Source: Halococcus salifodinae DSM 8989
GTDB taxonomy: Archaea > Halobacteriota > Halobacteria > Halobacteriales > Halococcaceae
Assembly (NCBI RefSeq): GCF_000336935.1
Contig: NZ_AOME01000029.1
Coordinates: forward strand, 3,038 to 35,670
Length of the DNA: 32,633 bases
Direction of reading: 5' to 3'
Positions 5,413 to 25,804 of this stretch are shown here, in pieces. How positions within the stretch are numbered: the stretch's first letter is position 1; every line of letters starts with the position of its first letter. A model generated the notes under the pieces. The model worked only from the letters and a program-made list of their open reading frames with translations, had not been told where the DNA came from and ran no database searches. A program made the position numbers and the translations under genes.

Positions 5413-5940
5413 ATGAGAAGTATGACTGGATCGGGCGAGAAATTAGTCGGTGTTGATCCGGAGCAGTTGCGCCAGCAACTGCGAACGGAAACGGATGCGA
5501 AGGCCACCAAGCAGCTCACTGTTGCACTCCTCTACGACGCTGGATTCTCGCCATACATCATCGAAAACTTCCTCGGCTTTCCTGCTCAGACCGCCTACGG
5601 CTGGTTGGACACAGTCGCCGAGCGCGATGTCACCGCGCTCGGCGACGCTCCACGACCCGGACGCCCATCGTACCTCTCGCCCGAGCAGTGGGACCAGCTC
5701 ACCGCGACTCTTCAGGCACCGCCGTCAGAGGTTGACGTCGACGCACCAGCCTGGAAACCGCCGCTCGTCCAAGAGTACATCGTCGAGAATTTCGGCGTTG
5801 AGTACTCGCTCGCGCACGTTTATCGCATGATGCACAAGGCCGGGCTGTCAGTTCAGACAGCCCGGCCGATCGCCTATCAGGCCGACCCAGAAGAACAGCG
5901 ACACTGGCGCGAGGAGTTCAAAAAAAGTGGCCGACGCTGA
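5413..5940 (+). CDS. IS630-family transposase, N-terminal part (frame A)
   Basis: The 175 residues form the helix-turn-helix, DNA-binding half of an IS630 transposase. They include FSPYIIENFLGF-QTAYGWLD (helix-turn-helix), a GRPSYLSPEQWDQL linker and a second winged segment (VENFGVEYSLAHVYRMMHKAGL). The frame ends at TGA 5938-5940, just after an A7 run at 5920-5926. Continuing one base back at that run joins the sequence smoothly to the catalytic half (FKKKWPTLKANDYRIVAIDQ). The start may be 5413 or the in-frame ATG at 5422, which lies 22-30 nt after an AT-rich stretch. Frames A and B together give about 343 residues, the normal family length. Confidence 0.88.
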   Translation: MRSMTGSGEKLVGVDPEQLRQQLRTETDAKATKQLTVALLYDAGFSPYIIENFLGFPAQTAYGWLDTVAERDVTALGDAPRPGRPSYLSPEQWDQLTATLQAPPSEVDVDAPAWKPPLVQEYIVENFGVEYSLAHVYRMMHKAGLSVQTARPIAYQADPEEQRHWREEFKKSGRR

Positions 5941-6440
5941 AGGCTAACGACTATCGAATCGTCGCGATCGATCAGCACTCCGAAGCGGTCGCAACCAATC
6001 AAAAGTCCGATTGGTTCCCGGTGAACTCGCGCCCGAGACTGCCGGTCTCGGGCGCTCGCGGGAAGGTGAACATGCTCGGAGCCGTCACTGACGACGGCGA
6101 ACGGTTCGTGGCTCTCACACCGAATCAGTTCAATGCAGAGGTCGCGAAACACTTCCTCCGAGCGATACAGCACGAGTTCGGCGAGAGGCTCGTAATCGTG
6201 CTGGACAACGCGAGCTACTTCATCGCGAAGACACTGAAGAAGCAGGCCGCCGCGGACGGCCTGCTTCTGGAATACCTGCCGTCACATTCACCCGAGATGA
6301 ATCCGCTCGAAAACTGCTGGCGGCAGCTTCGAGAAGGCCGGGCCAACCGATTGTTCCGCACGCTCGCCGATGTCAACGAGTACCTCTCAACAGCGCTGCC
6401 AGCGCTCAACTCGCCGCAAGTCTACGAGTATCTCTGCTAA
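5925..6440 (+). CDS. IS630-family transposase, catalytic part (frame B, -1 relative to A)
   Basis: Reached by a -1 shift at the A7 run 5920-5926; the overlap with frame A is 16 bases. It carries the DDE catalytic triad: Asp in RIVAIDQHSEA, Asp in LVIVLDNASYF, and Glu in LPSHSPEMNPLENCW, the diagnostic IS630 block. No internal ATG sits at its beginning (the first is at 6072, within the domain), so it would be made only as a fusion with frame A. The shift is either programmed (ribosomal or transcriptional slippage on A7) or a one-base lesion. The intact remainder and the slippery tract favour the former, but this is inference. Confidence 0.85.
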   Translation, partial: KWPTLKANDYRIVAIDQHSEAVATNQKSDWFPVNSRPRLPVSGARGKVNMLGAVTDDGERFVALTPNQFNAEVAKHFLRAIQHEFGERLVIVLDNASYFIAKTLKKQAAADGLLLEYLPSHSPEMNPLENCWRQLREGRANRLFRTLADVNEYLSTALPALNSPQVYEYLC

Positions 6441-8216: not shown

Positions 8217-9248
8217 TCACTCGACGACGTGTTCGGGCGTCTCCCCGTCGAGGTAGTCGTCGAGCTGGCCGGCGATGATTCGCGGCCCGCCGAGCACCGC
8301 GTCCCGAGTCGACCCGGCGACGTGGGGGGTGAGGACGACCTCGTCTCGGTCGAAGAGGGGGTGGTCCACGGGGAGCGGCTCCTCCTGGAACACGTCGATC
8401 GCCGCGCCGCCGAGTTCGTCGTTCTCGAGCGCCGCAACCAGCGCTTCCTCGTCGACGAGGCCGCCCCGAGCGGTGTTGATCAGGTACGCCGAGGGTTTCA
8501 TCCGCTGGAACTCCTCGCGGCCCATCATCCCCTCGGTGTCGCGCGACAGCCTGACGTGGAGCGTCACGGCGTCGGACTCGGCCAGCAGCGTCTCCAGGTC
8601 GGCCGGCTCCGGACCCGCCTCGCGGATCTCGTCGTCGTCGACGAACGGGTCGTACGCTAGAATCTCGGGGTCGAACCCGGCGAGCCGGCGGGCGACCCCC
8701 CGGCCGATGTGGCCGAAGCCGACGACCCCGACCGTCGTCGTCCGGACGTCCGGCGGGAGCCGGTCGGGGTCGAACACTTGGTTCCACTCCCCCGCGGAGA
8801 GCTCCGCGTGGTTGAACGGGATCTCCCGAAGCCGCGAGAGCAGCATCGAGACGGCGTAGTCGGCGACGGCGTCGCGGTTGCGGCCGGGGGCGTGGAGCAC
8901 AGTAACGCCGTTGTCGGCGGCGGCCTCGACGTCGACGTTCTCCGTGCCGCCGCGGGCGGCGCCGACGAGCTCCAGCGAGTCCGCCCCGTCGATCAGCTCT
9001 CGGGAGACGGGTGCCTTGTGGACGACCAGCGCGTCCACCCCGTCGAGCTCGGCGGCGATCGCGCCCGTGTCGTAGCTCCCCGGGCCGGCCGACTCCATAT
9101 CCATCGTCACGTTCCGGAACTCGGCGGGTGAGGCGTCGCCCATCCAGTCCATCCGGTCGAACGCCACCCCTCGCTCCTCGAGGCCCTCGAGCGCCTCGTA
9201 CATGTACTCGCTCGGCTGCTGTGGGTCCCCGCACAGTAAGACCTTCAT
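8217..9248 (-). CDS. D-isomer-specific 2-hydroxyacid dehydrogenase
   Basis: NAD(P)-dependent dehydrogenase of 343 residues, in the phosphoglycerate/glyoxylate/D-lactate dehydrogenase family. The Rossmann motif GFGHIG is at about 177-182. The substrate-binding loop is near residue 99 (AARGGTENVD), and the catalytic triad is Arg260 (NTARGGLVDE), Glu289 (DVFQEEP) and His309 (LTPHVAGST). The start ATG at 9248 sits 5 bases after the kinase stop, so the gene is the last of the minus-strand operon that begins at 13291. Context suggests that it oxidises or reduces a small 2-hydroxy/2-oxo acid, or a sugar acid, made by the preceding kinase and aldolase. The exact substrate is unknown. Confidence 0.9.
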   Translation of the reverse strand: MKVLLCGDPQQPSEYMYEALEGLEERGVAFDRMDWMGDASPAEFRNVTMDMESAGPGSYDTGAIAAELDGVDALVVHKAPVSRELIDGADSLELVGAARGGTENVDVEAAADNGVTVLHAPGRNRDAVADYAVSMLLSRLREIPFNHAELSAGEWNQVFDPDRLPPDVRTTTVGVVGFGHIGRGVARRLAGFDPEILAYDPFVDDDEIREAGPEPADLETLLAESDAVTLHVRLSRDTEGMMGREEFQRMKPSAYLINTARGGLVDEEALVAALENDELGGAAIDVFQEEPLPVDHPLFDRDEVVLTPHVAGSTRDAVLGGPRIIAGQLDDYLDGETPEHVVE

Positions 9249-9253
9249 TCGAT

Positions 9254-10831
9254 TCAATCCTCCCGCCTGAAGGTCTTGAGCGTTTCCCAGGGTACTTCCA
9301 TCCCGTCGACGGCTTGGTCGAACGCCTCGGAGACGCGTCGGTAGGCGGCGACCGCCGCCGAGTCCGGCTCGTACGATTGGGCGGTTCCGACCGCCCGGTC
9401 GACCGCCGTCGCTGCGTCCGGGTAGACGCCCGCGGCCGTCCCCCCGCACAGCGCCGCCCCGAGCGCACCGGTCTCGCGTGCGTCCGGGACCGTCACCGGG
9501 GCGTCGGCGACATCGGCGAACAGCTTCGACCAGGCGTCGCTCTGTGCGCCGCCGCCCGTCAACCGGATCGTCCCGACCGCGGGCGTGAGGGTGTCGAGCG
9601 CCCCAGTCTGGGTTATCGCGACCCCCTCGTAGATCGCCCGGAGCATGTGCGCGCTCGTATGCGAGAGCCGGAGCCCGTAGAACCCGCCGGCGCTGCTCGG
9701 GTCGTCAGTCGACCCCTGCAGGAACGGGTGGAAGACGAGCCCGTCCGCACCCGGGTCGACCCCCGCGACCGCCTCCTCGTACACCTCGTACGGGTCGACC
9801 CCACGCTCGCACGCCTCCCGGCGCCAGTCGCCGCCACACCGGTCGACGAACCAGTCGACGCAGGCCGCCCCCGCCCTGATACCTCGGTAGCGGTACCAGC
9901 CGTCGAGGTACCGCCGGAGCAGGCCGCCCGCGCCGTCGTCCGGCGAGTCGAGCACCGCGACGCTCTGGCCCCACGTCCCGAGGATGGCGAGTCCGTCGCC
10001 CGGCTCGACCAGTCCCGCGCCGAAAGTGCACGCGCCGACGTCCTGTAGCCCGGCGGCGACGGGGGTCCCCTCGGGGAGTCCGGTGTCGGCGGCGGCCTCG
10101 ACCGTCATCGCCCCACAGGACTCGGTGCTCGGGATGACCGGTGGCAACGCCTTGAACGCCGCCTCGATGCCGAGTGCGGCGAACGCCTCCCGGTCGTACG
10201 CGGCGTTCGGGCCGTAGAAGACGCTCCCCTCGGTCGGGTCCGTGACGCGCTCGCCGGTAAGCCGGTGGGTGAGCACGTCCTTGCAGAACAGGAGCGTGTC
10301 GAGGCGGTCGTACGTCGCCGGCTCGTTGGCCCGAAGCCACACGAGGAGGCTCAGCGGGTCCGCGCCGAACGGCTCCCAGCCGAGACGGTCGACGGCGCGC
10401 TCGCGGGCCCCCTCGGCGCAGTGCTCGTCGAGGGCGTCGAGCGCCCGGCTGTCGGTAGACTTGATTCCGCAGACCGGCTCGCCCGCCGCGTCCAACCCGT
10501 AGAGACCGTGGCCGTGGCCGGCGACGCCCACGCCGGCGACGGCGTCGGTCGGGACGTCGTCGCTCCCGACGACCGCCCCGACCGTCTCCGCGACGACCGC
10601 CCACAGGCGGTCGTGGTCCTGCTCCTCGCGGTCGGCCGCCGCTCCCTCGCTCGCGTCGACGCCCCCGTTCGCGGTTCCCCCGGTCCCCCCGGCTTCCCCG
10701 GCCGCGCCGTCCGGCTCCGACCGCGGCGTCGACCGCGACGCGGCCGCGAGCTCGGTTCCGTCGGGGTCGTAGGCGGCGACCGTGACGTTGGTGAGTCCGG
10801 CGTCGACCCCGACGAGCACGTTCTCCGTCAT
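9254..10831 (-). CDS. FGGY-family carbohydrate kinase
   Basis: ATP-dependent sugar, polyol or sugar-acid kinase of 525 residues. The actin-like N-terminal phosphate-binding strand is VLVGVDAGLTNVTVAAYD. The catalytic Asp lies in AGLQDVGACTFGAG, and the C-terminal signature is IRLTGGGAQSDAWSKLFAD followed by ETGALGAAL. Residues of about 35-75 form a haloarchaeal low-complexity acidic insert (SEPDGAAGEAGGTGGTANGG region) where relatives have a short substrate loop, so substrate assignment by similarity is unsafe. The ATG at 10829-10831 overlaps the aldolase stop by four bases (ATGA), indicating translational coupling. A kinase followed by a class II aldolase is the usual arrangement for a ketose phosphorylated and then split to dihydroxyacetone phosphate and an aldehyde. 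Confidence 0.9.
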   Translation of the reverse strand: MTENVLVGVDAGLTNVTVAAYDPDGTELAAASRSTPRSEPDGAAGEAGGTGGTANGGVDASEGAAADREEQDHDRLWAVVAETVGAVVGSDDVPTDAVAGVGVAGHGHGLYGLDAAGEPVCGIKSTDSRALDALDEHCAEGARERAVDRLGWEPFGADPLSLLVWLRANEPATYDRLDTLLFCKDVLTHRLTGERVTDPTEGSVFYGPNAAYDREAFAALGIEAAFKALPPVIPSTESCGAMTVEAAADTGLPEGTPVAAGLQDVGACTFGAGLVEPGDGLAILGTWGQSVAVLDSPDDGAGGLLRRYLDGWYRYRGIRAGAACVDWFVDRCGGDWRREACERGVDPYEVYEEAVAGVDPGADGLVFHPFLQGSTDDPSSAGGFYGLRLSHTSAHMLRAIYEGVAITQTGALDTLTPAVGTIRLTGGGAQSDAWSKLFADVADAPVTVPDARETGALGAALCGGTAAGVYPDAATAVDRAVGTAQSYEPDSAAVAAYRRVSEAFDQAVDGMEVPWETLKTFRRED

Positions 10832-11832
10832 CGGTCCGCCCGGCGCGACTCGCCGGCGCTCCCGGTGAGTTCGCACAGCCCCGCCATCACGTCGGCGATC
10901 CGGTCTCGGGCCGCGTTCGAGACGACGTGCGGGTGGAAGTACGTCTTGTCGGGCCCCCAGTCGGCCTCGGCGAAGAAGCCCGCCCGGTCGTCGGCGACGC
11001 CGTCCGGGGGTCGGACCGCGTCGGCGTGCTCGCGGTAGAAGTCCGCCGCGGTCCGTGCGTACTCGTACTGGTACCGGGTGTTCTTGTTGAACTTGACGAC
11101 CCCGGCGTCGAGGAGTGCCGCCAACTGCTCGTCGGCGAGCCCCGAGGCGCCGTGGACGACGAGAAACGCGTCCGACCCGGCGTCGGCGAGCGCCCGGCCG
11201 ATGTCGGCCGCAACGTCGGGTCGGACGTCGAGGTCGCGGCCGGAGGCGACGCCGTGCTGGGTGCCGACCGATACCGCGAGGAGGTCACAGCCCGTCCGCT
11301 CGACGAACTCGACCGCGTCGTCCGCGTCGGTGTAGAACGCCTCGTCGTCCGGTGTCTTCGTGCTTCCCTCGACGCCGGCGATGCGGCCCAGTTCGGCCTC
11401 GACGAAGACCTCCCCGGCGGCGTGCTCGACCGCCTCACGGGTGAGTTCGACGTTGCGCTCGAACGGCTCGGCGGAGGCGTCGACCATCACGGAGTTGGGG
11501 ACGCCCGAGTCGAGACATGCCTCCAAGAAGTCAGCGTCCTCGGGGAGGTGGACGTGATCGACGTTGCAGAAGGTCTCGATGTCGAAGCGCGCCCCGAACG
11601 CGTCCAGACAGTCGCCGAAGACGCGGAGCCCAACGGTCGGGTCGCCGTCGCCGAAGAAGGCTGCCTCTTCGCGACCGAGCTGGACGACAAGGTCTGAGTC
11701 GGTGCGGTCGCTCCCTCGTAGCAGTCCGACGAGCACGTCGAAGTGGGTGACGTTGCTGGCGAAGAACCCGTGGCCGCCCTCCCGGGCCCGCTCGTACAGC
11801 TTCCGGAGGCCGACGCCCGCACGGTGTGACAT
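10828..11832 (-). CDS. Class II fructose-bisphosphate-type aldolase
   Basis: Zinc-dependent aldolase of 334 residues, in the Fba/GatY/KbaY family. Recognisable blocks are FASNVTHFDVLVGLLRG at the N-terminus, Asp92-His93 in NVDHVHL (catalytic Asp and zinc His) and VEAELGRIAGVEG with the conserved Glu. His193 is in GTQHG, His227 in VVHGASG, and VKFNKNT is the phosphate/Asn loop. All zinc ligands therefore appear present. Divergence in the loops makes fructose-1,6-bisphosphate an uncertain substrate. Immediate coupling to an FGGY kinase suggests cleavage of a ketose phosphate or keto-acid phosphate to dihydroxyacetone phosphate. The ATG at 11832 has its own TATA-like box 25-32 nt upstream. Confidence 0.88.
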   Translation of the reverse strand: MSHRAGVGLRKLYERAREGGHGFFASNVTHFDVLVGLLRGSDRTDSDLVVQLGREEAAFFGDGDPTVGLRVFGDCLDAFGARFDIETFCNVDHVHLPEDADFLEACLDSGVPNSVMVDASAEPFERNVELTREAVEHAAGEVFVEAELGRIAGVEGSTKTPDDEAFYTDADDAVEFVERTGCDLLAVSVGTQHGVASGRDLDVRPDVAADIGRALADAGSDAFLVVHGASGLADEQLAALLDAGVVKFNKNTRYQYEYARTAADFYREHADAVRPPDGVADDRAGFFAEADWGPDKTYFHPHVVSNAARDRIADVMAGLCELTGSAGESRRADR

Positions 11833-11835
11833 ACG

Positions 11836-12171
11836 CTACCTGACGGGACAGTGCCGATTAATTCTACCGGAACGACGCGACGGCATCCCGGGGGTCGCAC
11901 CGACGAGGCGAACGCGGTGGGCGTCGCCGCCGCTCAGGTCGTACTCCGCTTCGAAGCACCGTCGGACGGAGACGACCGATCCCGCCTCGGTACCCTGGGT
12001 GATGGTCTCGTACTCCGCCAGCGCCGCCACGACCGTCTGCGTCCTGCCCCGCGACGGTTTGATCTCGCTCGTGTCCGTGGTGTCCGCTGTCGCCTCTCGG
12101 GCGGTCGAACGACCGCCTCGCGCACGGTTCGCGTGGTTGTCACCCACGGGTACGGCCGTCCGCGGCCCCAC
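11836..12171 (-). CDS. Small uncharacterised ORF inside the KARI-aldolase operon
   Basis: A 111-codon open frame starting with GTG 7 bases after the KARI-like stop and ending 3 bases before the aldolase ATG. Spacing and strong GC at third positions (until the last dozen codons) suggest real coding sequence. The product is polar, with a helical middle (QTVVAALAEYETITQGTEAG) and a strand-like CFEAEYDLSGGDAHRVRLVG. I recognise no family. It could be a true small subunit, or the remnant of a larger gene, since the N-terminal 30 residues look non-conserved. The last codons overlap the probable promoter of the aldolase, which weakens the case for the extreme C-terminus. Confidence 0.4.
   Translation of the reverse strand: MGPRTAVPVGDNHANRARGGRSTAREATADTTDTSEIKPSRGRTQTVVAALAEYETITQGTEAGSVVSVRRCFEAEYDLSGGDAHRVRLVGATPGMPSRRSGRINRHCPVR
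11857..11864 (-). promoter_or_regulatory. TATA-like box upstream of the aldolase
   Basis: AATTAATC on the minus strand, 25-32 nt upstream of the aldolase ATG at 11832, is the only AT-rich octamer in the neighbourhood. It suggests that the aldolase-kinase-dehydrogenase genes can be transcribed independently of the KARI-like gene. Confidence 0.5.
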
Positions 12172-12178
12172 TGGACGG

Positions 12179-13291
12179 CTACTCCTCCCGGAGACCGAAC
12201 GCGTCGAGCGTCGTCTGCTCAGTCTCGACGAACGCGGAGTTCTCGTACTGCCGGCGGAGGCGGTCCAATCGGGAGTCTTCTGCCGCCTGCTCCTGAGTCC
12301 ACTCCTCGGCGAACTCCCCGGATTCGATCGCTGCCAGGCGTTCGCGCATGAACTCGCGGATCGGTTCGCGGTCGAACGCCTCCAGTCCGAGCAGCTGGCC
12401 GTACTGGCTCGTCCGCGAGTGGAGGTCCATCTGCGCGACCAACCCCTCGGTCGCGCACTTCTCGAAGATGTGGGCCATCTCGCGGGAAAGGTACGACTCG
12501 AGCAGCGTCACCTCCGGCGGGACCCCCGCCTCGGACTCCACCTCGAAGCGGGCGAGCAGCGCGGCGGCGAACACCGGGAACAGCCCCTGTTCGCTCAGCA
12601 GGTCCGTGCGCGTCTCCGTCTCGAAGTCAGTCTCGACGACGCCCGAGCGGGTGCTCCCGATGCCGGCCGCGACGGCCAACGCCCGACTCTTCGCCTCGCC
12701 CGTGGCGTCCCGGTGGACGGCTAGCAGCGCGGGCGCGCCCCGGCCCGCCTCGTACAGCTCGCGCACTACTGCCCCGATCATGCGGGGCGCGACGAGTGCC
12801 ACGTCGACTGCCGGATCGACCTCGACGTACCCGTAGGTAACGTTGTAGCCGGAGGCAAACACGAGCGCGTCGCCAGGACCGAGATTCGGCTCGACCGTCC
12901 GTTCGTACACTTCTGGCTGGACCTCGTCGGGGACCAGGAAGAGCACGACGTCCGCCCGGGCCGTCGCCTCGGCCATCGGGTAGGCGTCGAAGCCATCCTC
13001 GCGGGCCTGCTCCCGAGAGTCGTCCGCACGGTTCCCGATCACGACCTCGAGCCCCGCGTCGCGCATATTTGACGCCTGCGACCGCCCTTGGTTCCCGTAA
13101 CCGAGGACGGCGACGGTATCGCCATCGAGCGGGTCGGTGCTCGCGTCAGTCTCGTGGTAGACGGTGGCCGACGCCGTCGTCGACGTCGCCGTCAGTTCCG
13201 GGTCTGTCGAATTCGTTCCTCCATCCGCCGAATCGGAAGCCGTCGACTGTCCCCTCGCGTCGCTGTCGCCGTCGTCGTCCGTCGAGTCCAT
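12179..13291 (-). CDS. Ketol-acid reductoisomerase-like oxidoreductase with altered active site
   Basis: The 370-residue protein has a D/S/T/G-rich extension (residues 1-50), then a Rossmann domain with VAVLGYGNQGRSQASNMRDAG (nucleotide motif at 64-69). A KARI knotted C-terminal domain follows (about 215-335: STRSGVVETDFETETRTD onward). Mg-binding Asp230 and Glu234 (TDLLSEQ) and Glu265 are kept. Aligned from memory with IlvC, the catalytic His of the FAHGFN-type motif is Ser147 (FASGYN), the Lys of VAPKGPG is Arg170 (VAPRMIG), and the second Glu of FECLHE is Ser269. This makes ordinary acetolactate isomeroreduction unlikely. It heads an operon with an aldolase, a kinase and a hydroxyacid dehydrogenase rather than branched-chain amino-acid genes. 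I infer a redox isomerisation of a sugar-acid-like ketol acid; the substrate is unknown. Confidence 0.82.
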   Translation of the reverse strand: MDSTDDDGDSDARGQSTASDSADGGTNSTDPELTATSTTASATVYHETDASTDPLDGDTVAVLGYGNQGRSQASNMRDAGLEVVIGNRADDSREQAREDGFDAYPMAEATARADVVLFLVPDEVQPEVYERTVEPNLGPGDALVFASGYNVTYGYVEVDPAVDVALVAPRMIGAVVRELYEAGRGAPALLAVHRDATGEAKSRALAVAAGIGSTRSGVVETDFETETRTDLLSEQGLFPVFAAALLARFEVESEAGVPPEVTLLESYLSREMAHIFEKCATEGLVAQMDLHSRTSQYGQLLGLEAFDREPIREFMRERLAAIESGEFAEEWTQEQAAEDSRLDRLRRQYENSAFVETEQTTLDAFGLREE

Positions 13292-13453: not shown

Positions 13454-14776
13454 ATGGTCGAACTCGACGTACCCGACGCAGAGACGCTTGCGGACGTCAA
13501 CGACGTCAGCATCGGCGACTTCCCCCGCCTCGCCTACGCCGAACGCCGCCGGGACTCGCCTCGGGTCGACGACGTCTCCGCGGCGACTCGCGACGCGATC
13601 GGGGATATCCCCGCCCTGACCGACCTCGACGAGGGTGCCGAGGTGGCCGTCACAGCCGGGAGCCGCGGCATCCACGACATGCCCGAACTGATTGAGGCGG
13701 TCGTCGCCGAGCTTTCGGAGCGCGGGCTGGATCCCTTCGTCATGCCGGCGATGGGGAGTCACGGCGGCGCGACGCCGGGGGGGCAGCGCGACGTCCTGGA
13801 GGGGTACGGGATCACCGAGGAGCGACTGGGCTGTGAGATCCGCGATTCGATGGCCGTCGAGCCCGTCGCCGAGGACTCAGAGGGACGTCCGATCCCGGTG
13901 TCGAGGGTCGCCCTAGAGGCCGACGCGGTGCTCGTCGCCAACCGGGTGAAGCTCCACACCGACTTTCGCAACGAGGTGGAGTCCGGGCTGACGAAGATGA
14001 CCGTCGTCGGCCTCGGCAAGCAGCGCGGGGCAGAAGAGATGCACAACGCCGCCATCTCCCGCGGGCTCGATACCGTGATTCAGGAACGCGCCGACGCCAT
14101 CTTCGAGCACGCCCCTGTCGTCGGCGGGATCGCGCTCGTCGAGAACGCGAACGACCGCGCCGCGCTGATTGAGGGCGTCCCGGTCGGAGAGATCTCCGAC
14201 CGCGAGCCCGAACTGCTCGCCCGCTCGAAGATGCTGTTCGGCGAACTCCCGGTCGACCACCTCGACCTGCTCGTCGTCGACGAGATCGGGAAGGACGTCT
14301 CCGGCACCGGGATGGACACCAACGTGATCGGCCGCTACCAGTTCCTCAACGAGGAGGAGCCCGCCCTGCCCGACATCACGCGGATCTACGCCCGCGACGT
14401 CACCGACGCCTCCCACGGCAACGGGATCGGGATGGGGCTCGCGGACTTCGTCCACGAGGACCTCGTCGTACAGTTGAACCTCTCGGACACCTACGTGAAC
14501 GCCGTGACCAGCGGCGAGTCCTCCCGCGCGTTCGTCCCGATCGTCTCGCCGAGCGACCGGACTGCGCTGCTGCTGGCGTACTCTATTACGGGCGTCCGCG
14601 ACCCCGAAGACCTCCGTATCGGCTACGTCCGGAGCACGCTCCACCCGGACGAGCTGTACGTCTCCGACCCCGTCGCCGACGAACTGGCGGAGTGCGACGA
14701 CGTCGACGTCGGGGAGCGCCGGGAGATAGAGTTCGACGACGCGGGCGACTTCGTATTCGGGTTCGAAGGTCGATAG
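13454..14776 (+). CDS. LarA-family (DUF2088) racemase/epimerase-like protein
   Basis: A 440-residue relative of the nickel-pincer lactate racemase LarA. The N-terminal Lar_N-type domain contains VTAGSRGIHDMPELI and MGSHGGATPGG (His103, corresponding to the first catalytic His region of LarA). A later RVKLHTDF...ESGLTKMTVVGLGKQ block provides candidate His168 and Lys181/Lys189. LarA homologues racemise or epimerise 2-hydroxyacids, including sugar acids, using a cofactor made by LarB/C/E; no lar biosynthesis gene is in this window. The ATG at 13454 is chosen over an upstream in-frame Met at 13349 because conserved sequence begins here. It is divergent from the KARI-like operon, which suggests a shared 2-hydroxyacid theme. 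The substrate is unknown. Confidence 0.8.
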   Translation: MVELDVPDAETLADVNDVSIGDFPRLAYAERRRDSPRVDDVSAATRDAIGDIPALTDLDEGAEVAVTAGSRGIHDMPELIEAVVAELSERGLDPFVMPAMGSHGGATPGGQRDVLEGYGITEERLGCEIRDSMAVEPVAEDSEGRPIPVSRVALEADAVLVANRVKLHTDFRNEVESGLTKMTVVGLGKQRGAEEMHNAAISRGLDTVIQERADAIFEHAPVVGGIALVENANDRAALIEGVPVGEISDREPELLARSKMLFGELPVDHLDLLVVDEIGKDVSGTGMDTNVIGRYQFLNEEEPALPDITRIYARDVTDASHGNGIGMGLADFVHEDLVVQLNLSDTYVNAVTSGESSRAFVPIVSPSDRTALLLAYSITGVRDPEDLRIGYVRSTLHPDELYVSDPVADELAECDDVDVGERREIEFDDAGDFVFGFEGR

Positions 14777-15992: not shown

Positions 15993-16913
15993 ATGACCGA
16001 CGCTGCCTCGGACGACCCGGTCCGTACCTGGTGTCCGCTGGTTACTCCCCTCGACGGGGACGAGGCGGTCGACCACGACGCGCTCGCGAGCTTGGTCTCG
16101 CACGTTCGCGAGGGCGGTGTCGAGGGGCTCGTTCCCTGCGGTACGACGGGGGAGTTCGCCAGTCTCGACGCCGAGGAGTACCGCGCGGTGCTGGAGACGA
16201 CCGTCGACGCCGCCGGCGATGCGCCCGTCATGGCCGGCACTGCGGCGACGAGCGTCGCCGAGACGCTCCACCGGATCGAAACGGCGAGGGACGCCGGCGT
16301 CGACATCGGACTGATCGTCCTCCCGTACTTCCACACGGCGAACGACCCCGAGGGCAACGCGGAATTCGTCCGGCGCGTCGCCGACGACGCGGTACTTCCG
16401 CTCTACCTCTACAACATCCCGGCCTGTACGGGGCAGGCGATCGCCCCCGACGTGGTCAAGTCGGTCGCCGATCACGACCGGATCCACGGGCTGAAGGACT
16501 CGAGCGGCGACTTCAACTACTTCGTCGAGACGCTGCGCCGGACTCCGGACGACTTCGACTGTTACCAGGGGTTCGACAGCCACCTCGTCCCCGGGATGCT
16601 GCAGGGCGGTACGGGCGGGATCAACGCCCTCTCGAACGTCGTCCCCAAGGTGTTCACGGCCGGCGCGGCGGCGGCCGCCGGCGACGTCGACGCCGCTCGC
16701 CGGATCGGGAACGAGGGGATCGCGCCGCTGTTTCAGCAGTGCGTCGCCCACGGGTTCGCCCCGGCGACGAAGGCCGCGCTGGCCGAGCGGAGTATCCTCG
16801 ACGACGCCACGGTGCGTCCGCCGCTGGTCGAACCCGGTGACGAAGCGCGGGAAGAGATCGGCGAGGCCGTCGACATCGCCCTCGACGTCGTCGAATCGGT
16901 CGACCTCGGCTGA
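15993..16913 (+). CDS. DapA-family lyase/dehydratase (dihydrodipicolinate synthase superfamily)
   Basis: An (alpha/beta)8 Schiff-base enzyme of 306 residues. The pyruvate-carboxylate-binding motif GTTGE is at 50-54, the proton-shuttle Tyr140 in LYLYNIPACTGQ, and the Schiff-base Lys168 in HGLKDSSGD. The ATG at 15993 starts just before the conserved first strand; a longer in-frame version from 15939 adds only low-complexity residues. In haloarchaea and Bacillota such proteins cleave 2-keto-3-deoxy sugar acids to pyruvate and an aldehyde. No lysine-pathway gene is nearby, so a sugar-acid role fits the region better than diaminopimelate synthesis. It converges with the Lut genes. Confidence 0.9.
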   Translation: MTDAASDDPVRTWCPLVTPLDGDEAVDHDALASLVSHVREGGVEGLVPCGTTGEFASLDAEEYRAVLETTVDAAGDAPVMAGTAATSVAETLHRIETARDAGVDIGLIVLPYFHTANDPEGNAEFVRRVADDAVLPLYLYNIPACTGQAIAPDVVKSVADHDRIHGLKDSSGDFNYFVETLRRTPDDFDCYQGFDSHLVPGMLQGGTGGINALSNVVPKVFTAGAAAAAGDVDAARRIGNEGIAPLFQQCVAHGFAPATKAALAERSILDDATVRPPLVEPGDEAREEIGEAVDIALDVVESVDLG

Positions 16914-16959: not shown

Positions 16960-19230
16960 CTACGTCCGGGCTGGGTCGAGCAACTCCACCGGGTGCGCTG
17001 GCTTCCGGTCGAGCAGGTCGTCCAACTGGTCGAGACACGAGGTCCCGCTGGCGACGACCCGGCGGTTCCCGTGAACCCCACCGAACTCCGTCGCGAGGTC
17101 CTCACCGACGGCCATACTGAGTTCGTAGTAGTCGCGCTTGTAGCCGAAGCTACCAGCCATCCCACAGCACTCGGCCTCCGAGAGGACGACATCGTACCCG
17201 AGTCGGTCGAGCACGGCCTGGGTGTGGGCGGCCGCGCCGAGGGTCCGCTGCTGGCAGTGGCTGTGGTAGGCTACGCCCGGGTCGTCCGCGTCGGGGCCGG
17301 TCAGCACGTCGGCGTCGCCGCCGTTCTCCAGCAGGCCGAAGACGTACTCGACGGCCTCGTAGCTGTTCTCGGACAGGCGTTGATGGGAGGCGTCCGGGAG
17401 GAACTTCTCGTACTCCCGACGGAACATGGCGAGGTCGCTCGGTTCGACCACGACCACGTCGCGGCCGGCGTCGAGGTGCTCCGCGAGCGCGCCGAACACC
17501 CGGCTGGCCTTCGCGTCGGCGGTGGCGACCATCCCCTGTGAGAGCGGCGCTCGACCGCTGGAGGGAACGTCCGGTACCTCGACGTGCACGCCGAGGGCTT
17601 CCAGCACCCGGACGGCGGCCCGCCCACGTCCCGGGCGGACGTAGTTCGTGTAGAGGTCGGGGTAGACGATCGCCTCGCGGGTCGCCTCGTCCCGGGGGAC
17701 CAGCGAGCCGCCGGCCGCTCGCGTCTCCCGCGCTCGCTTCGTCGAGGCGGCTGCGCCGCCTCGCTTCTCGAACCAGTCGCGGAACGTCTCCCGCTCGAAC
17801 TGGGGCAGGTCGCGCCGGCCGTCGATTCCCAGCACGCGCTCCATTCCGGCGCGGACCGGCCCCGCATTCGCGAGCCAGTTCGACAGCGGGGCCGTCGCAC
17901 TCCCGAGCTTCGCCGCCGTCTCGAAGTTGCCGAAGAAGCGCTTGCCGAGGTCCATCCCGCCCGGCTCCTCGTCGGGCGTGAGCCCCTCGACGAGGTGGTC
18001 GAACTGCCCCTCGTCGGCGCCGCGGTTGACCCGGTCGCGAACGACGGTGTTGATCCACGGGATGTCGATCTCGACGGGGCAGGCGTTCACGCAGCGCGAG
18101 CAGCCCGTACAGAGGTCGTTGAACTCCGCCGCGGTGTCCAGCCCCTCGACACCGGCCTCCCAGCCGGTGGCGATGCCGCCGGTGTACGTCTCGCCGCCGA
18201 ACGCGTGGCCGCCCACTTGCTGGAAGTTCGCACAGGAGTTCGCGCAGGCGCCACAGCGGATGCAGTACAGCGTCTCCCGCAACTGGGGATCCTCGCGCAT
18301 CTCGGTCCGGCCGTTGTCGAGGAGGACGAGGTGGAACTCGCGGTCCTCACTCCCCTGCTTCGACAGCGGAGTCGTCGGGTCGTCGAAGTCGAGCGAGGGG
18401 GAGTCGGAGGGGGGTGTCAGCATCGAGAGGTACTGCGGGACGTCCTGACCGGTCGCGGCGCGGGCGATCAGCTCGGTGAACGGCTTCAGTTCCTCGATAG
18501 AGGGGAGAAGCTTCTCGATTCCGGCGACGGCGACGTGCGTGTCCGGCGTCGCCGCCACCTTCCGGCCGTTCCCCTCGTTGGTGACGAGCGTGATCGTCCC
18601 CGACTCGGCGAGCACGAAGTTCGCACCGGTGACCCCCACGTCCGCCTCGACGATGCGGTCGCCGAGGTAGTCGCGCGCGAACTCGGTGAGCTCTTGGGCC
18701 GTTTCCAGGGGCTCCTCCGGGTCAAAACGGTCGTTGAACAGTTCCGCAATGTCGTCACTCGACCTGTGCAGCGAGGGGCCGACGAGGTGGGAGGGCGCCT
18801 CGTCGGCGACCTGGACGACGAACTCCCCGAGGTCGGTCTCGTACACGTCGACGCCGGCGGCTTCGAGCGCCTCGTTGAGGTCGATCTCTTCGGTCGTCAT
18901 CGACTTCGACTTCACGACCGTGTCGCCGTCGTCCCGGACGACCTCCTCGACGTAACGGTTCGCGTCCGCGGCGTCGTCCGCGACGTACACCGTGCCGCCG
19001 TTGGCCTCGACCGACTCGCGGACGGTCTCGATCAGCTCCGGGAGGCGCTCGATGGCGTCCTCCTTGATCTCCCGTGCCCTGCCCCTGAGCTCCTCGTACC
19101 CCTCGTACTCGGTCGAGGCCCGGTACCGCTCGCGGTTGAAGTGGCTCGTGTTCTCCCGGACCGCCTCCCGCTCGGTCGCGAGCAGGTGACGGATGTGGGC
19201 AGCTTTGTCAGTGGGTTCGTCGACGGACAT
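16960..19230 (-). CDS. LutB-LutA fusion: LUD domain, two 4Fe-4S clusters and CCG domain
   Basis: A 756-residue cytoplasmic oxidoreductase for 2-hydroxyacid (lactate or glycolate) oxidation. Residues of about 60-290 form the LUD domain (VGVTGANFVLAESGTITLVT). Ferredoxin clusters are at Cys323/326/329/333 (CIRCGACANSC) and Cys374/377/380/384 (CTGCSRCVNACP). From about 520 onward a LutA/HdrB-like CCG region has SSG at 557-559 where the first CCG usually stands, then HSHC near 656 and a full ECCGMAGSFGY (CCG at 688-690). In Bacillus these are separate proteins LutA and LutB; here they are one chain. It follows lutC with no gap (ATG 19230, lutC stop at 19231-19233), so the pair is one operon. Confidence 0.92.
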   Translation of the reverse strand: MSVDEPTDKAAHIRHLLATEREAVRENTSHFNRERYRASTEYEGYEELRGRAREIKEDAIERLPELIETVRESVEANGGTVYVADDAADANRYVEEVVRDDGDTVVKSKSMTTEEIDLNEALEAAGVDVYETDLGEFVVQVADEAPSHLVGPSLHRSSDDIAELFNDRFDPEEPLETAQELTEFARDYLGDRIVEADVGVTGANFVLAESGTITLVTNEGNGRKVAATPDTHVAVAGIEKLLPSIEELKPFTELIARAATGQDVPQYLSMLTPPSDSPSLDFDDPTTPLSKQGSEDREFHLVLLDNGRTEMREDPQLRETLYCIRCGACANSCANFQQVGGHAFGGETYTGGIATGWEAGVEGLDTAAEFNDLCTGCSRCVNACPVEIDIPWINTVVRDRVNRGADEGQFDHLVEGLTPDEEPGGMDLGKRFFGNFETAAKLGSATAPLSNWLANAGPVRAGMERVLGIDGRRDLPQFERETFRDWFEKRGGAAASTKRARETRAAGGSLVPRDEATREAIVYPDLYTNYVRPGRGRAAVRVLEALGVHVEVPDVPSSGRAPLSQGMVATADAKASRVFGALAEHLDAGRDVVVVEPSDLAMFRREYEKFLPDASHQRLSENSYEAVEYVFGLLENGGDADVLTGPDADDPGVAYHSHCQQRTLGAAAHTQAVLDRLGYDVVLSEAECCGMAGSFGYKRDYYELSMAVGEDLATEFGGVHGNRRVVASGTSCLDQLDDLLDRKPAHPVELLDPART

Positions 19231-19740
19231 CTACCGATTCTCCAGGACGACGGCGTGGACGTGCTTCGGCCCGTGGACCCCCTCGACGAGCGCGCCCATG
19301 TCGCCGGTCGCGCTCGGGCCGGTCGCGAAGACGGCGCTCGCGGGGTTCTCGGCGTAGGCGTCGCCGAGTTCGTCGAGCGCGGCGGGGAGGTCGGCGACGA
19401 GGTCACTCTCGCGAACGACGGCGACGTGACGCTCGGGGTAGAGGCTCACCGGCTCCGACCCCTTCGCGTCGGAGTCGATCAGGAAGCTCCCGTACGTGGC
19501 GACGCCGAGCCTGGCGGGCGTGACCCCCGTCGTCGCCGCGCGTAGCTCCGCGGGCGTCGGGTCGACCGTCACCGGCGCGTCGTCGAGTGATACCCCCTCG
19601 TAGCCGAGCGGGACGCCGACGGCGGGGTTGACGAGCGCATCGACCAGCGTCGAACGGAACCCCTCGATGTCGGTGCGCGCCCACGAGACCCCGTGGTCCT
19701 CCAGCGCCTCGCCGAACCCAGCAATGCGTACATTTGACAT
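19231..19740 (-). CDS. lutC: LutC-like LUD-domain protein
   Basis: A 169-residue single LUD domain, the usual length for haloarchaeal LutC/LldG. Typical blocks are GVTPARLGVATYGSFLI (active-site-like strand with Thr/Gly), SLYPERHVAVV and FATGPSATGDMGALVEGVHGP, the family-defining C-terminal motif. It is the third subunit of the lactate/glycolate-oxidising Lut complex and is directly upstream of the LutB-LutA fusion. The ATG at 19740 is supported by a TATA-like box 24-31 nt upstream. It probably supplies pyruvate or glyoxylate from hydroxyacids released by the aldolase routes in this window. Confidence 0.9.
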   Translation of the reverse strand: MSNVRIAGFGEALEDHGVSWARTDIEGFRSTLVDALVNPAVGVPLGYEGVSLDDAPVTVDPTPAELRAATTGVTPARLGVATYGSFLIDSDAKGSEPVSLYPERHVAVVRESDLVADLPAALDELGDAYAENPASAVFATGPSATGDMGALVEGVHGPKHVHAVVLENR

Positions 19741-20002: not shown

Positions 20003-20971
20003 TCACCTTTCCTTCTCGACGGACTCCAGTAACCCCTTCATGTAGCCGATGGTGAACAGCCGGCCCTTGGTCTCGTAGCCGGGGTTGTCGTTCTGCTCGC
20101 CGGCCATCGTCGGCACGTGGTCCGGGCGGATCACGCCGTCGAAGTCGACCTCGTGGTAGGCGCGCATCGCCTCGACCATGTCCGTCGGGCCGTCATCGTG
20201 CCAGGTCTCCACGAACCCGTCGGCGTCCCCCTCGACGTCGCGGAAGTGCGCGAATACGATACGGTCGCCGAAGTGGCGGATCGCCTCGGGGATGTCGGCG
20301 CCCATCGCTGCGAAGTTCCCTTGACCGAACGTGACGCCGTTGTGCGGGCTGTCGACGATATCCAGTACCCGGTCGTACGCTTCGACGCTGTTGATAATCC
20401 GAGGGATCCCCGCCAGTTCCTCGCGCGGCGGGTCGTCGGGGTGGAGCCCGAGCTTCACGCCGGCCTCCTCGGCGACCGGGACAACCTCCTCTAGGAAGTA
20501 CTCAAGATTCCCCCACAGCTCCTCGTGGGTTACGTCGACCGGCGAGCGTCCCTCCGGGAGTCCCTCCATCCGATCGAGGTCGAACCCGGAGGTGAGCGAT
20601 CCGCCCCGGATCTCGATGTGGACGTCGGTTCGGGCCCAGCGAACGCTCGCCATCCAGTCATAGCAGACGGTGGGTATCCCCAACTCGCCGCAGTCTCGGA
20701 GGAACTGTTTGAACGTCTCGATCTCCTCGTCGCGCCCTTCGAGTCCGAGGCGTGTCCGGTCCGTGATTGGGACGCTCCCCTCGATGACAGCGACCTCTAA
20801 ATCGACGCCCTCGAACCAGTTCACCATGCCGCGCAGCTCCTCGAACTTCCAGAATCGCTTGTCCTCGCCGATCTCCAGCGGGTGGACGACGGCCTTCTCG
20901 ACGCCCATCTGTGTCGCGAGTTTCCAGCGGTCGTCCGGCTCCGGCGGGAGGATGAGTGCAGGCTCAACCAT
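20003..20971 (-). CDS. uxuA: Mannonate dehydratase-like protein (UxuA family)
   Basis: A 322-residue TIM-barrel protein of the UxuA family, which dehydrates D-mannonate to 2-keto-3-deoxygluconate. Family blocks are VKLGLHPDDPP (His177), AHFRDV (His242), FVETWHDDGPTDM and IRPDHVPTMAGE (Asp284). The block equivalent to the FCTGS-type motif reads TFGQGN, with Gly216 where UxuA has its metal-binding Cys. Two earlier in-frame starts exist (20986 ATG, 20992 GTG), but the ATG at 20971 is best placed relative to the TATA-like box at 20996-21003. Length is slightly below the roughly 350-390 of bacterial UxuA. Function in a hexuronate route is plausible, but the altered ligand leaves the substrate open. 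Confidence 0.8.
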   Translation of the reverse strand: MVEPALILPPEPDDRWKLATQMGVEKAVVHPLEIGEDKRFWKFEELRGMVNWFEGVDLEVAVIEGSVPITDRTRLGLEGRDEEIETFKQFLRDCGELGIPTVCYDWMASVRWARTDVHIEIRGGSLTSGFDLDRMEGLPEGRSPVDVTHEELWGNLEYFLEEVVPVAEEAGVKLGLHPDDPPREELAGIPRIINSVEAYDRVLDIVDSPHNGVTFGQGNFAAMGADIPEAIRHFGDRIVFAHFRDVEGDADGFVETWHDDGPTDMVEAMRAYHEVDFDGVIRPDHVPTMAGEQNDNPGYETKGRLFTIGYMKGLLESVEKER

Positions 20972-20995
20972 GTCTCGTCGGTCCATGCGCACCCT

Positions 20996-21003
20996 GATAA
21001 CTC
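20996..21003 (-). promoter_or_regulatory. TATA-like box deciding the start of the UxuA-like gene
   Basis: GAGTTATC on the minus strand, 25-32 nt upstream of the ATG at 20971 but only 10-17 nt from the ATG at 20986. This argues for the shorter protein from a leaderless mRNA. Confidence 0.5.
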
Positions 21004-21204
21004 TTGGCGACCGCGACGGTTACCGGTCGTTGGGAAACGCGCTCGAGTCCTCGACGCCGAGCACGTTCCCACGTTACCGACCGACACACCGGACGACGAC
21101 ACGCCAGCCGACAGCACCGACCCCCGTCGATGGCGGCGCTCGCTTCCAGCCGCGGCGGTCGGCTTGACCGGGGGACGGGAGCCCGGCGGAGTCGTCCTCG
21201 CGTG

Positions 21205-22491
21205 TCAGTCGGCGTCCGACTCCGGCTCCACGCCGACGGGGTCGTCGGGCGCGTCGAAACTCTCGACCAGCGCGAACTGGGTGAGAACGGCGGCCGCGAA
21301 CGCCAGCAGACTCCCGACCGCGTAGGTCAGTTCAATGGAGGTGACCGTCGACGCCAGGCCGAACAGCGCCGGCCCGACCATCCCGCCGAACCCCCGCGCG
21401 GTCGAACGGAAGCCGATGAGTTCGGACTCGCGGTCGGCGGGGGCGACGTCTCCGATGAACGACACCGCGCCGACCCGGGTCCCCGAGAAGGCTCCCGCGA
21501 GCAGGGCCATGCCGACGGCGACGACGACGGCACGTCCGATCGCGGAGGGGACGAACGCCGCCGAGGCCATCGCGGCGGCGAACGCCCCGGAGCCGGCCAT
21601 CCCGAGCGTGATGAACGGCTTCCGCCCGAGCCGGTCCGCGTACTCGCCCACGAGGTACATCGTCGCGACCTGGCCGGCGGGGTTCACCGCGAGCAACGCG
21701 CCCATCAGGAACTCCGAGAGTCCCAACTCTCCGACGATGTACACTGGGAGGAGGCTCGTCGTCCCGAGCACGGTCATGTTCCGGAGCAGGGTGGCGGCGT
21801 AGAGCCACATGAGCCCGTTCGTGTAGAGGTGTTCGCGGCCGGCCGCGCTGGGGAACAGCCGCCGCTTCACCTCGCCGCCGAGTTCGCGGGGAGCGACGCG
21901 CCGGTGGCGGTCGGGGTTCGGGTCCTCGATCACGAGCGCTGCGAGCAGCACGAGCCCCGAGACCGCGGCGACGACGCCGAACAGTTCCGGCGCGGCGAGC
22001 AGGCCAAGCAACACGCCGGCGAACAGCTGTCCGAACGTGAACCCGACCGCCTGCGCGCTCGAGAAGAAGCCGACCGAACGGCCCCGCGCCTGCGCCCCCC
22101 CGCGGTCGCTCACGACCGCGAGCATCACGGGGAGGTACCCTGCCGCGAAGGCGGCGTAGACGGTCCGGGCCGTCAACGGGAGCCAGATACCGTCGACGAG
22201 AACGAGCGGGAGGGCGGCGATCGCACCCAGAGCCGACACGGCCAGCAGGACGTCCCGCCGACGGCCGGTCACGTCGGCGAGGGCGCCCCAGACCGGCGCG
22301 AACGTCATCAGGCCGAAGAAGTACAACGCGAGCACGAGGCTCACTGCGAGCGGGGAGCCGCCACGGCGGCCGATGTAAACGGCCATCGCGGTCCCCATCA
22401 GGATCGGTGCGAACTTGCTCGCGGCGGCGGCGACGCCGATCGCCGACCGTTGGATGCGGTCGCTGCCCCGGTCTACCGCGGGGAAGTTCAC
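21205..22491 (-). CDS. Major facilitator superfamily transporter
   Basis: A 428-residue membrane protein with about 12 hydrophobic segments in two halves separated by a basic, hydrophilic loop (IEDPNPDRHRRVAPRELGGE). MFS motif A is visible in the first half (GALADVTGRRRDVLL) and a related one in the second (YLVGEYADRLGRKPF). No signal peptide beyond the first membrane segment is seen. The ATG lies 10 bases after the stop of the glucarate-dehydratase-like gene, so the two form an operon, and uptake of the corresponding sugar acid (aldarate or aldonate) is the natural inference. The acidic C-terminus (PDDPVGVEPESDAD) is typical of halophiles. Confidence 0.9.
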   Translation of the reverse strand: MNFPAVDRGSDRIQRSAIGVAAAASKFAPILMGTAMAVYIGRRGGSPLAVSLVLALYFFGLMTFAPVWGALADVTGRRRDVLLAVSALGAIAALPLVLVDGIWLPLTARTVYAAFAAGYLPVMLAVVSDRGGAQARGRSVGFFSSAQAVGFTFGQLFAGVLLGLLAAPELFGVVAAVSGLVLLAALVIEDPNPDRHRRVAPRELGGEVKRRLFPSAAGREHLYTNGLMWLYAATLLRNMTVLGTTSLLPVYIVGELGLSEFLMGALLAVNPAGQVATMYLVGEYADRLGRKPFITLGMAGSGAFAAAMASAAFVPSAIGRAVVVAVGMALLAGAFSGTRVGAVSFIGDVAPADRESELIGFRSTARGFGGMVGPALFGLASTVTSIELTYAVGSLLAFAAAVLTQFALVESFDAPDDPVGVEPESDAD

Positions 22492-22501
22492 TGGACGAGC
22501 C

Positions 22502-23731
22502 TCACCACCGGGGCTTGTTGGGCAGCCAGCCCGACCGCCCCGATTCGCTCATCGCGTCGGCGTACTCGGCCGCCATCGACTCCACCGACGAGTACGCGAG
22601 CGGGTCGGACTCCTCGTAGCGGTCGCGTGCCCGTTCGACCAGGTCGTCGTCGAGTTCGACCCCGAGACCGGGGTCGTCCGAGAGGCTGATCGTCCCGTCG
22701 GATATCTCGACCGGCGCGTCGCGGATCACGTCGTCGGCCATCCACGGGTAGTGGGTGTCGGGGGCGTACCGGAGCGTCGGCATCGCCGCCGAGACGTGTG
22801 CCATCGCGGCCATGCTCACCCCGAGGTGGGAGTTCGAGTGCATCCCGACGCCGAGGTCGAACGTCCGAGCGACGGTGTCGAGGCGCCGAGTGCCGCTGAA
22901 CCCGCCCCAGTAGTGGTGGTCGCTCAGGATGACGTCGACAGCCCCCATCTCGACCGCAGGGGCGATTTCGTCGAACTCGGTGACGTACATGTTCGTCGCC
23001 ACGGGGTAGTCCACGTGACGCTTCAGTCGGGCGTGCGCGTTCATCGTCGGGACGGGGTCTTCGAGGAACTGAACGTGGAGGTCCCGGTCCCGTAGGCGGT
23101 TCGCGATGTCGATGGCGGTCTCCACGCTCCACGTCCCGTTCGGGTCGATGCGAAGGGGTGTCTCGCGGCCGAACTCCTCCGCCAGAAGGTCGAGCGTCCG
23201 CAGTTCCGCCTCGGGCGGCAGGACGCCCCCTTTCAACTTCAGCACGTCGAACCCGTATCGCTCGACGAACTCCGTCGCCTCCTCGACCATCGACTCGGGG
23301 CTCATCACCTCCTGTGGAGCTATCGCCGCCCCGTTTGGGTCGGAGTCGGCCCCCTTGAAGAAGAGGTACCCGGAGAACTCCACCTCGTCGCGCATCTTCC
23401 CCCCGAGCAAGTTGTAGACGGGTTCGCCGACGGCCTTGCCGAGGAGATCGAACAGCGCCACCTCGATGGCCCCGTACGCCATCGGGTCCTGCAGGCGGTG
23501 GGCGAGCGGTCGGCGCTCGTGGGGGTTCGCCCCCTCGACCAGATCGACCGCGCGCTCCAGCGCCGATATCACTCGTTCGTCGCCGTAGGTCTCGCCGACA
23601 CCGACGGTGCCGTCGGCGGTAGTGAGTCGGACGAGCGTCCGTGCGGCGACCTCGCTGTGTGCGCCCCATGAGTTGCGCAGCGGCGGCTCTCGGTGTGCGA
23701 CCGGGAGTACCTCCATCTCGCGGACTTTCAT
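22502..23731 (-). CDS. Enolase-superfamily dehydratase, glucarate-dehydratase-like
   Basis: A 409-residue (capping domain plus barrel) enzyme with the glucarate-dehydratase ligand set. It has the KxK motif Lys165-x-Lys167 (LKLKGG), Asp196/Asn198 (RIDPNGTW), Glu224 (FLEDPVP), Asn247 as third metal ligand (VATNMYV, the GlucD hallmark) and Asp271. His298 lies in VGMHSNSHLG. It removes water from an acid sugar, most likely D-glucarate or a related aldarate, to a 5-keto-4-deoxy acid. It is divergent from the DapA-family gene at 23845, which could process that product, and co-transcribed with the MFS gene downstream. The start at 23731 precedes the first conserved strand. Confidence 0.88.
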   Translation of the reverse strand: MKVREMEVLPVAHREPPLRNSWGAHSEVAARTLVRLTTADGTVGVGETYGDERVISALERAVDLVEGANPHERRPLAHRLQDPMAYGAIEVALFDLLGKAVGEPVYNLLGGKMRDEVEFSGYLFFKGADSDPNGAAIAPQEVMSPESMVEEATEFVERYGFDVLKLKGGVLPPEAELRTLDLLAEEFGRETPLRIDPNGTWSVETAIDIANRLRDRDLHVQFLEDPVPTMNAHARLKRHVDYPVATNMYVTEFDEIAPAVEMGAVDVILSDHHYWGGFSGTRRLDTVARTFDLGVGMHSNSHLGVSMAAMAHVSAAMPTLRYAPDTHYPWMADDVIRDAPVEISDGTISLSDDPGLGVELDDDLVERARDRYEESDPLAYSSVESMAAEYADAMSESGRSGWLPNKPRW

Positions 23732-23760
23732 GTGTCAACTAGGCACACACCGTAGGGCTC

Positions 23761-23820
23761 ATTAAAGCTATTGGTGGGACCCGATTCGACCGATTCCGGC
23801 GTCCCGCCGAAGCTTTTTGT
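23761..23820. promoter_or_regulatory. Divergent promoter between glucarate dehydratase and DapA-family genes
   Basis: Two AT-rich boxes face opposite ways in a 113-base gap: TAGCTTTAAT (minus strand, 23761-23770, 30-39 nt upstream of the ATG at 23731) and CTTTTTGT (plus strand, 23813-23820, 25-32 nt upstream of the ATG at 23845). The arrangement allows co-regulation by one factor binding between them. No clear operator palindrome was found. Confidence 0.5.
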
Positions 23821-23844
23821 GGGTGTGGGTTGTGATGGCACGCG

Positions 23845-24771: not shown

Positions 24772-24908
24772 CCTCGGCGCCCCGTCGCCCGTCCCGGTCG
24801 GAAATCGACTGTCGACCCTTCTCTCCTCGTAGCCGAGCGCCGAACCGTCCGCGGCCCGTTTTAGTCGAGGGGACCGGTTCCCGCCCGACCGGAGTCCGTG
24901 GCCCCAGT

Positions 24909-25543
24909 TCAGTCCAGATTCACGGCCGAATCGTACGACGACACCGCCGCGGCCGACGGCTCGTCGGTCTCGACGTCGACGACGGGGGCGGCGAACTCGG
25001 CCTCCAGGATGCCGCTCGGGACGCCCAATCTGACCGGCCCGGTCGGCGGCGTCAGCGCCGTCTCCACCCCGCATGCGACCTCGGTGGGTAGGTCGCGCCG
25101 GCGCTCGACGTTGACGTTCGCCTTGACGACCTCGTCGTAGGTGTCGGGATCGATCTCGTGGATCGGCCCCTTCCCGCGCTCGTCGGGGTCGACGTTGGCG
25201 GAGACATGGAGGATCGGCACCGGGTCCTCGTAGGCGTTCTTCAGGCCGTGCATCGCGTTGGTGTCGCCCGGTCCGGGGACGGTGAGCGTCGCCGCCGGCC
25301 GGCCGCCTCGTAGTACCCCCACGCGATGTGCGGGACGGCGGTCTCGTGGCGGGCCATCACGTAGCGCATCTCGTCGTGCTCGACGACCGTCCGGTCGAGC
25401 GGGAGCGTCTGCGTCCCCGGGATGCCGATCAGCGTGTCGACGCCGGCGTCGACGAGCGCCTCGTACACGTGGTTGCCGCCCGTCCTCGCCGTCCGGCCGG
25501 CGTCGCTCCCCACGGTATCGGTGTCAGTGTCGGCGTCAGTCAT
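24909..25543 (-). pseudogene. Truncated, frameshifted ThDP-dependent enzyme (acetolactate synthase type)
   Basis: The start at 25543 (MTDADTDTDTVG) leads into a ThDP-binding PYR domain: GNHVYEALVDAGVDTLIGIPG, then the conserved Glu in ARHETAVPHIAWGYYEA. Near 25291-25305 the frame shifts by one base, and the continuation VPGPGDTNAMHGLKNAYED runs in another frame. It ends at 24909 after GVPSGILEAEF and a non-conserved tail. The central and C-terminal ThDP domains (about 350 residues) are absent. A stand-alone PYR subunit as in sulfopyruvate decarboxylase is the alternative, but the frameshift and the missing partner argue for a relic. The original substrate was probably a 2-oxo acid. Confidence 0.78.
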
Positions 25544-25804
25544 GCACACACCGACCGACCCCACCGGATTAGCCTTTTCCCCGTCGCAAGTCGCCGCCCG
25601 AGCGCTCCGCCACTCCCGGTCACCGCTCGCCGACTGTTTCGGACTGTCGCCATCCGCTGACGGCCCCACTCGCCGACGGTGTTCGAGGGACAGGTGCCGG
25701 AACACGCAGCGGCGACGCCGGGGTCGAGCGAGGACCGACCGTCGCGCTAACGGCCGAGTCGTTCCGGGCCAGAGCGCCGCGGCGGCCGTCCGCGCCGGAG
25801 GGTT

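Follow-up and report, generated by a model that had tools for sequence, protein, structure and literature searches.

Ketol-acid reductoisomerase (KARI, the IlvC of branched-chain amino acid synthesis) has been described as a promiscuous reductase (PMC4353338). BurG, an enzyme with the KARI fold, uses NAD+ to oxidize a linear 2,3-dihydroxy acid at C-alpha via an Mg-bound enolate; the NADP phosphate is kept out by Asn48 and Asp51 (PMC9359912). Here we analyzed a stretch of 32,633 nucleotides from the haloarchaeon Halococcus salifodinae DSM 8989 (contig NZ_AOME01000029.1, positions 3,038 to 35,670; hereafter the window), in which a gene for a KARI-like protein (13291-12179, minus strand; 370 aa) lies upstream of aldolase, kinase, and dehydrogenase genes. 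The initial annotation had joined these and a small open reading frame (ORF) into a single operon. We instead favor, with moderate confidence, two neighboring modules with separate proposed roles: an aldolase-kinase-dehydrogenase trio, and the KARI-like gene with a divergent LarA homologue of group 22 (LarA-22) and a DapA-type lyase. Judging from its sequence and gene neighborhood, the KARI-like enzyme probably oxidizes sugar acids.

The genome of the window encodes a true IlvC on contig C54, beside ilvBN, and this second KARI rules out the KARI-like gene as the sole ilvC. A search of relatives separated two tiers of identity, with true IlvC at about 37-45% and KARI-like orthologues at 49-62% in seven genomes; besides these there was a broken copy, split over several frames and apparently a pseudogene or an assembly error (L047:3326-4186, genome G015). 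Scanning public genomes with an alignment of the orthologues yielded 499 related stretches, 80 of which were kept, including the window's own locus; three pairs representing the same loci from two collections (L041/L058, L042/L060, and L044/L062) were each counted once. The taxa in the scan comprised haloarchaea, Bathyarchaeota, Jordarchaeia, Clostridia, Spirochaetes, Myxococcota, Chloroflexota, Acidobacteriota, and others. Phylogenetic analysis set 49 KARI-like sequences, including Sso-KARI of Sulfolobus solfataricus (6jcv), apart from 14 IlvC sequences (Shimodaira-Hasegawa-like approximate likelihood ratio test support of 100; branch of 0.68), with BurG not among the sequences of the tree. 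The KARI-like protein is therefore placed in a separate, well-supported clade that spans bacteria and archaea.

The protein, likely structured from residue ~42 onward, matched PF07991 (KARI_N, 202 bits) and PF01450 (KARI_C, 87 bits), and its AlphaFold (AF2) model, with a mean predicted local distance difference test score of 96, had BurG and KARIs as its closest folds (Z 37-39). Across the haloarchaeal set the metal ligands D230, E234, E265, and E271 did not vary, but two residues are inserted between E265 and E271; S292 was noted as a further residue. At the positions of the catalytic Lys and His that serve the isomerase step in IlvC, the protein instead carries R170 and S147. All clade members inspected had Arg at the Lys position and shared an HS.TS motif, and the His was replaced by Ser in the window's own clade and most others, with some members retaining it. 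In the inspected members the cofactor loop is one residue shorter and bears an Asp where the haloarchaeal true IlvC is Ser-rich. An N-x-x-D motif occupies the NAD(P) loop (N87 and D90), and these two residues correspond to BurG Asn48 and Asp51 by motif rather than by superposition. From the chemistry of BurG, this matching motif, and the promiscuity of KARI, we infer that the KARI-like protein may be an NAD-dependent oxidoreductase, and perhaps an oxidoisomerase, that acts on 2,3-dihydroxy sugar acids at C2.

Genomic context distinguished the clade as well. IlvB and IlvN were found within 1.5 kb at all 23 true IlvC loci, whereas IlvB occurred at one of the 80 KARI-like loci; conversely, GntP was near none of the former and 16 of the latter. 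This contrast is partly taxonomic, because the controls are haloarchaeal and the KARI-like loci come from many phyla, but for ilvB it persists among haloarchaeal loci alone. The neighbors of the KARI-like genes included FadR/GntR regulators (25 loci), lactate-racemase-type LarA (eight), LarA group 22 (six), and a DUF1537 kinase with PdxA2 (seven, in haloarchaea, Halanaerobium, Alicyclobacillus, and an actinobacterium), as well as an MR/MLE (enolase-superfamily) dehydratase with a GarL-like aldolase and, in Compostibacillus, an FAH-family protein with an alpha-ketoglutarate semialdehyde dehydrogenase. Unnamed neighbor clusters were left out because many small ORFs among the neighbor clusters were antisense frames in high-GC DNA. 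In two Halalkalicoccus-like genomes (L042 and L043), the KARI-like gene shares a single stretch with genes for the DUF1537 kinase, PdxA2, LarA-22, a DapA-type lyase, and GntP; compared with the genes next to the window's KARI-like gene, the LarA gene is 57% and the DapA gene 54% identical. In the window, the nickel-pincer-cofactor isomerase of group 22 (13454..14776, plus strand) diverges from the KARI-like gene and scored 475 bits with NF052515 (cut-off 400), and the aldolase-like lyase of the DapA/DHDPS family (15993..16913, plus strand) has YNIP and LKDSSGD motifs; a DUF1537-PdxA2 pair sits elsewhere in the genome. Of the genes for synthesis of the nickel-pincer cofactor, the one searched for, LarC, has a family member in the genome. 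In three Clostridiales loci (L093, L102, and L115), the KARI-like gene directly follows a glycyl-radical enzyme and its activase. The KARI-like gene thus lies outside an ilvC context and recurs with genes of sugar-acid catabolism, including a LarA-like gene, as first proposed. Our literature search, which most subscription papers lay beyond, returned no description of a catabolic KARI-like clade.

The five minus-strand frames had the coordinates and spacing given by the initial annotation, and Pfam and NCBIfam bore out the families it had named for the KARI-like protein, aldolase, kinase, and dehydrogenase. The aldolase (11832-10828) belongs to a haloarchaeal class II fructose-bisphosphate aldolase family (NF041368, 543 bits, above the cut-off of 500) and is the only gene of its kind found in the genome. 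It overlaps by four bases (ATGA) with an FGGY carbohydrate kinase (10831-9254) that fell below every named equivalog cut-off, the best being TIGR01312 (xylulokinase; 202 bits, cut-off 380), and after a five-base gap a member of the D-isomer-specific 2-hydroxyacid dehydrogenase family follows (9248-8217). Kinase matches at 47-72% identity occurred in 7 of 99 related genomes, and in all seven the aldolase preceded and the dehydrogenase followed the kinase on the same strand (51-75% and 57-82% identical to those of the window, respectively). The trio is a conserved haloarchaeal operon in its own right. The KARI-like gene was at none of these seven loci, being located elsewhere in three of the genomes (G011, G016, and G030) and absent from four. 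Among the 80 KARI-like loci, the trio was found only in the window and in Halobium salinum, and the earlier suggestion that the KARI-like enzyme feeds the adjacent kinase and aldolase is not supported.

Several observations weigh against our reading. Two genomes (G016 and G030) have homologues of LarA group 22 close to the trio, and presence of a KARI-like gene is associated with presence of the trio across 100 genomes (4, 4, 4, and 88; Fisher p 0.001, uncorrected for the kinship of the genomes). The two modules may therefore be metabolically linked, although we give the association little weight in view of that kinship and of the chance that large sugar degraders harbor both. The accompanying genes vary among taxa, which makes a single substrate for the whole clade unlikely. 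Sso-KARI belongs to the clade and is treated as a KARI, so the KARI-like protein could possess acetolactate activity, and in an uncultured archaeon (L122:7980-13280) the KARI-like gene precedes ilvB, ilvN, and a true ilvC, which is the sole ilvB-linked case among the 80 loci. These last two points, together with the KARI fold and a TIGR00465 score of 259 over the cut-off of 226, speak for an ordinary KARI of branched-chain amino acid synthesis, retained as a second, paralogous copy. We consider this unlikely: the PRK05479 score (287) is under its cut-off of 336, the genome has its own true IlvC, and ilvB is almost confined to the IlvC loci in the comparison above; the catalytic Lys is changed throughout the clade and the His in most members, and the patchily distributed genes stand next to catabolic ones.

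The idea that the five genes work together in a single pathway, assembled in this lineage only, depends partly on the called small ORF (12171-11836, minus strand), which lies seven bases after the KARI-like gene and three before the aldolase and had no family match in Pfam or NCBIfam. In Halobium salinum (L048; DNA identity 87-91% across the genes compared), the same interval holds a related frame across ~70 residues with a different ATG and 3' end, the interval being either shortened by a deletion in the window or lengthened by an insertion in Halobium salinum. Over a 48-codon core, the differences between the two fell 7:8:10 at codon positions 1, 2, and 3 (14 nonsynonymous and 6 synonymous codons), against 28:26:89 for the KARI-like gene, 21:18:53 for the aldolase, and 15:13:62 for the dehydrogenase in the same genome pair. 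Because these codon-position differences show no protein-level selection, the small ORF was dropped as a protein-coding gene; it is most likely an intergenic segment or a decayed small gene and not, as initially supposed, an active member of the operon. Within the interval, a TATA-like AATTAA box (11858..11863, minus strand), 25 nt ahead of the aldolase start codon and conserved in Halobium salinum, resembles a haloarchaeal promoter that may drive a leaderless transcript. With this box before the aldolase, the small ORF lacking protein-level selection, and the two halves found apart in other genomes, a five-gene operon was rejected. The co-occurrence of the five genes, initially proposed as a check, held to the extent that the identical order recurs in Halobium salinum, but nowhere else among the KARI-like and trio loci examined, the halves being separate in every other genome. 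That shared order, the tight spacing (provided that the small ORF counts), and the co-occurrence of the modules at the genome level would suit a single pathway, which we nevertheless regard as quite unlikely in view of the same three findings.

A final alternative, in our judgment very unlikely, casts the KARI-like protein as an oxidoisomerase of a branched sugar acid such as D-apionate that feeds a DUF1537-type kinase route: the chemistry fits, with D-apionate oxidoisomerase in chemical terms running the KARI reaction backward on a hydroxylated analogue, and the DUF1537 kinase and PdxA2 are neighbors at seven KARI-like loci, but the alkyl-shift Lys and, in most members, the His are replaced, and PdxA2 acts on a secondary alcohol and is unsuited to apionate itself. 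Homology to D-apionate oxidoisomerase, which had been cited as a precedent with no such claim, is not indicated, since the KARI-like protein had no Pfam match to PF16896 (which we take to be the C-terminal domain of the D-apionate oxidoisomerase ApnO) at E 0.001 and a search of the genome for the RuBisCO-like protein of known apionate routes found none. The latter result also led us to drop the known RuBisCO-like route, and the literature search on KARI with apiose or apionate returned nothing relevant. A keto or skeletal shift is still conceivable because the literature regards Sso-KARI as a KARI although it shares these replacements of Lys and His, and redox isomerization of a branched acid by the KARI-like protein is possible.

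Under the two-module reading, the kinase of the trio would phosphorylate a ketose, the class II aldolase would cleave the phosphorylated ketose into dihydroxyacetone phosphate and a small hydroxyaldehyde, and the dehydrogenase would handle the derived 2-hydroxy or 2-oxo acid. For the second module, in which we infer the direction, cofactor, substrate, and order of steps, the KARI-like enzyme, with its two-Mg2+ site and NAD(H), would act at C2 of a 2,3-dihydroxy sugar acid by oxidation (or reduction), LarA-22 would epimerize C2 and thereby provide the fitting stereoisomer (or remove the C2 epimer), and the DapA-type lyase would take the 2-oxo acid by Schiff-base chemistry. A broader proposal is tentative and, taken as a whole, rather doubtful: that the ilvC-annotated clade of about 500 stretches consists of NAD-dependent catabolic sugar-acid oxidoisomerases, which use KARI chemistry outside amino-acid synthesis and are teamed with nickel-pincer epimerases and with DUF1537/PdxA2 or DapA-type enzymes. 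If true, many genes annotated for branched-chain amino acids would belong to carbohydrate-acid catabolism, pathway predictions would be corrected in gut Clostridia, spirochaetes, haloarchaea, and others, another physiological role would be suggested for the solved Sso-KARI structures, and the orphan LarA group 22 would gain partners. The compact, conserved haloarchaeal trio is itself an operon whose substrate is accessible to growth and enzyme tests.

Beyond these modules, a 756-aa LutB/LdhH-GlpC-like fusion followed by LutC (16960-19740, minus strand; below named cut-offs) may form a lactate or 2-hydroxyacid oxidation unit. A wider sugar-acid island (20003-31723) comprises a UxuA mannonate dehydratase, an MFS transporter, four MR/MLE enolase-superfamily proteins, a second DHDPS-family protein, an HpcH-like aldolase, and a Gfo/Idh oxidoreductase. 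At 24906-25640 (minus strand) lies a broken thiamine-diphosphate enzyme, its acetolactate-synthase-like N-terminal part in two frames and its other domains gone. The region is flanked on either side by transposase-like frames (898-1566, 5413-6440, and 31807-32496), consistent with an accessory island.

Among known systems, BurG cyclopropanol synthase resembles the KARI-like protein in its fold, and its use of NAD+, exclusion of the NADP phosphate by Asn and Asp, and linear 2,3-dihydroxy acid form the basis of the likeness (PMC9359912), but identity is ~37% and ring formation from a sulfonium substrate, as in BurG, is not expected. With canonical class I KARI/IlvC the protein shares the fold, two-domain layout, Asp/Glu metal ligands, and active-site Ser; it differs in the Lys-to-Arg and His-to-Ser replacements, the insertion between the last two Glu ligands, the shorter acidic cofactor loop, and the catabolic context. 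Sso-KARI ('putative ketol-acid reductoisomerase 2', PDB 6jcv and others) is a member of the same clade with 41% identity, fold Z of 34-38, and common GNQGR, FASGYN, APRM, and HS.TSQYG motifs, yet it has been studied as a KARI able to use both cofactors according to the accessible part of its literature, in which we found no sugar-acid activity. L-threonate and D-threonate clusters place a 6-phosphogluconate dehydrogenase-superfamily dehydrogenase (LtnD) beside a DUF1537 kinase, PdxA2, a GntP permease, and a DeoR/GntR regulator. Compared with these clusters, the kinase and PdxA2 are unlinked from the KARI-like gene in the window's own genome, and the KARI-like enzyme stands in the place of LtnD.

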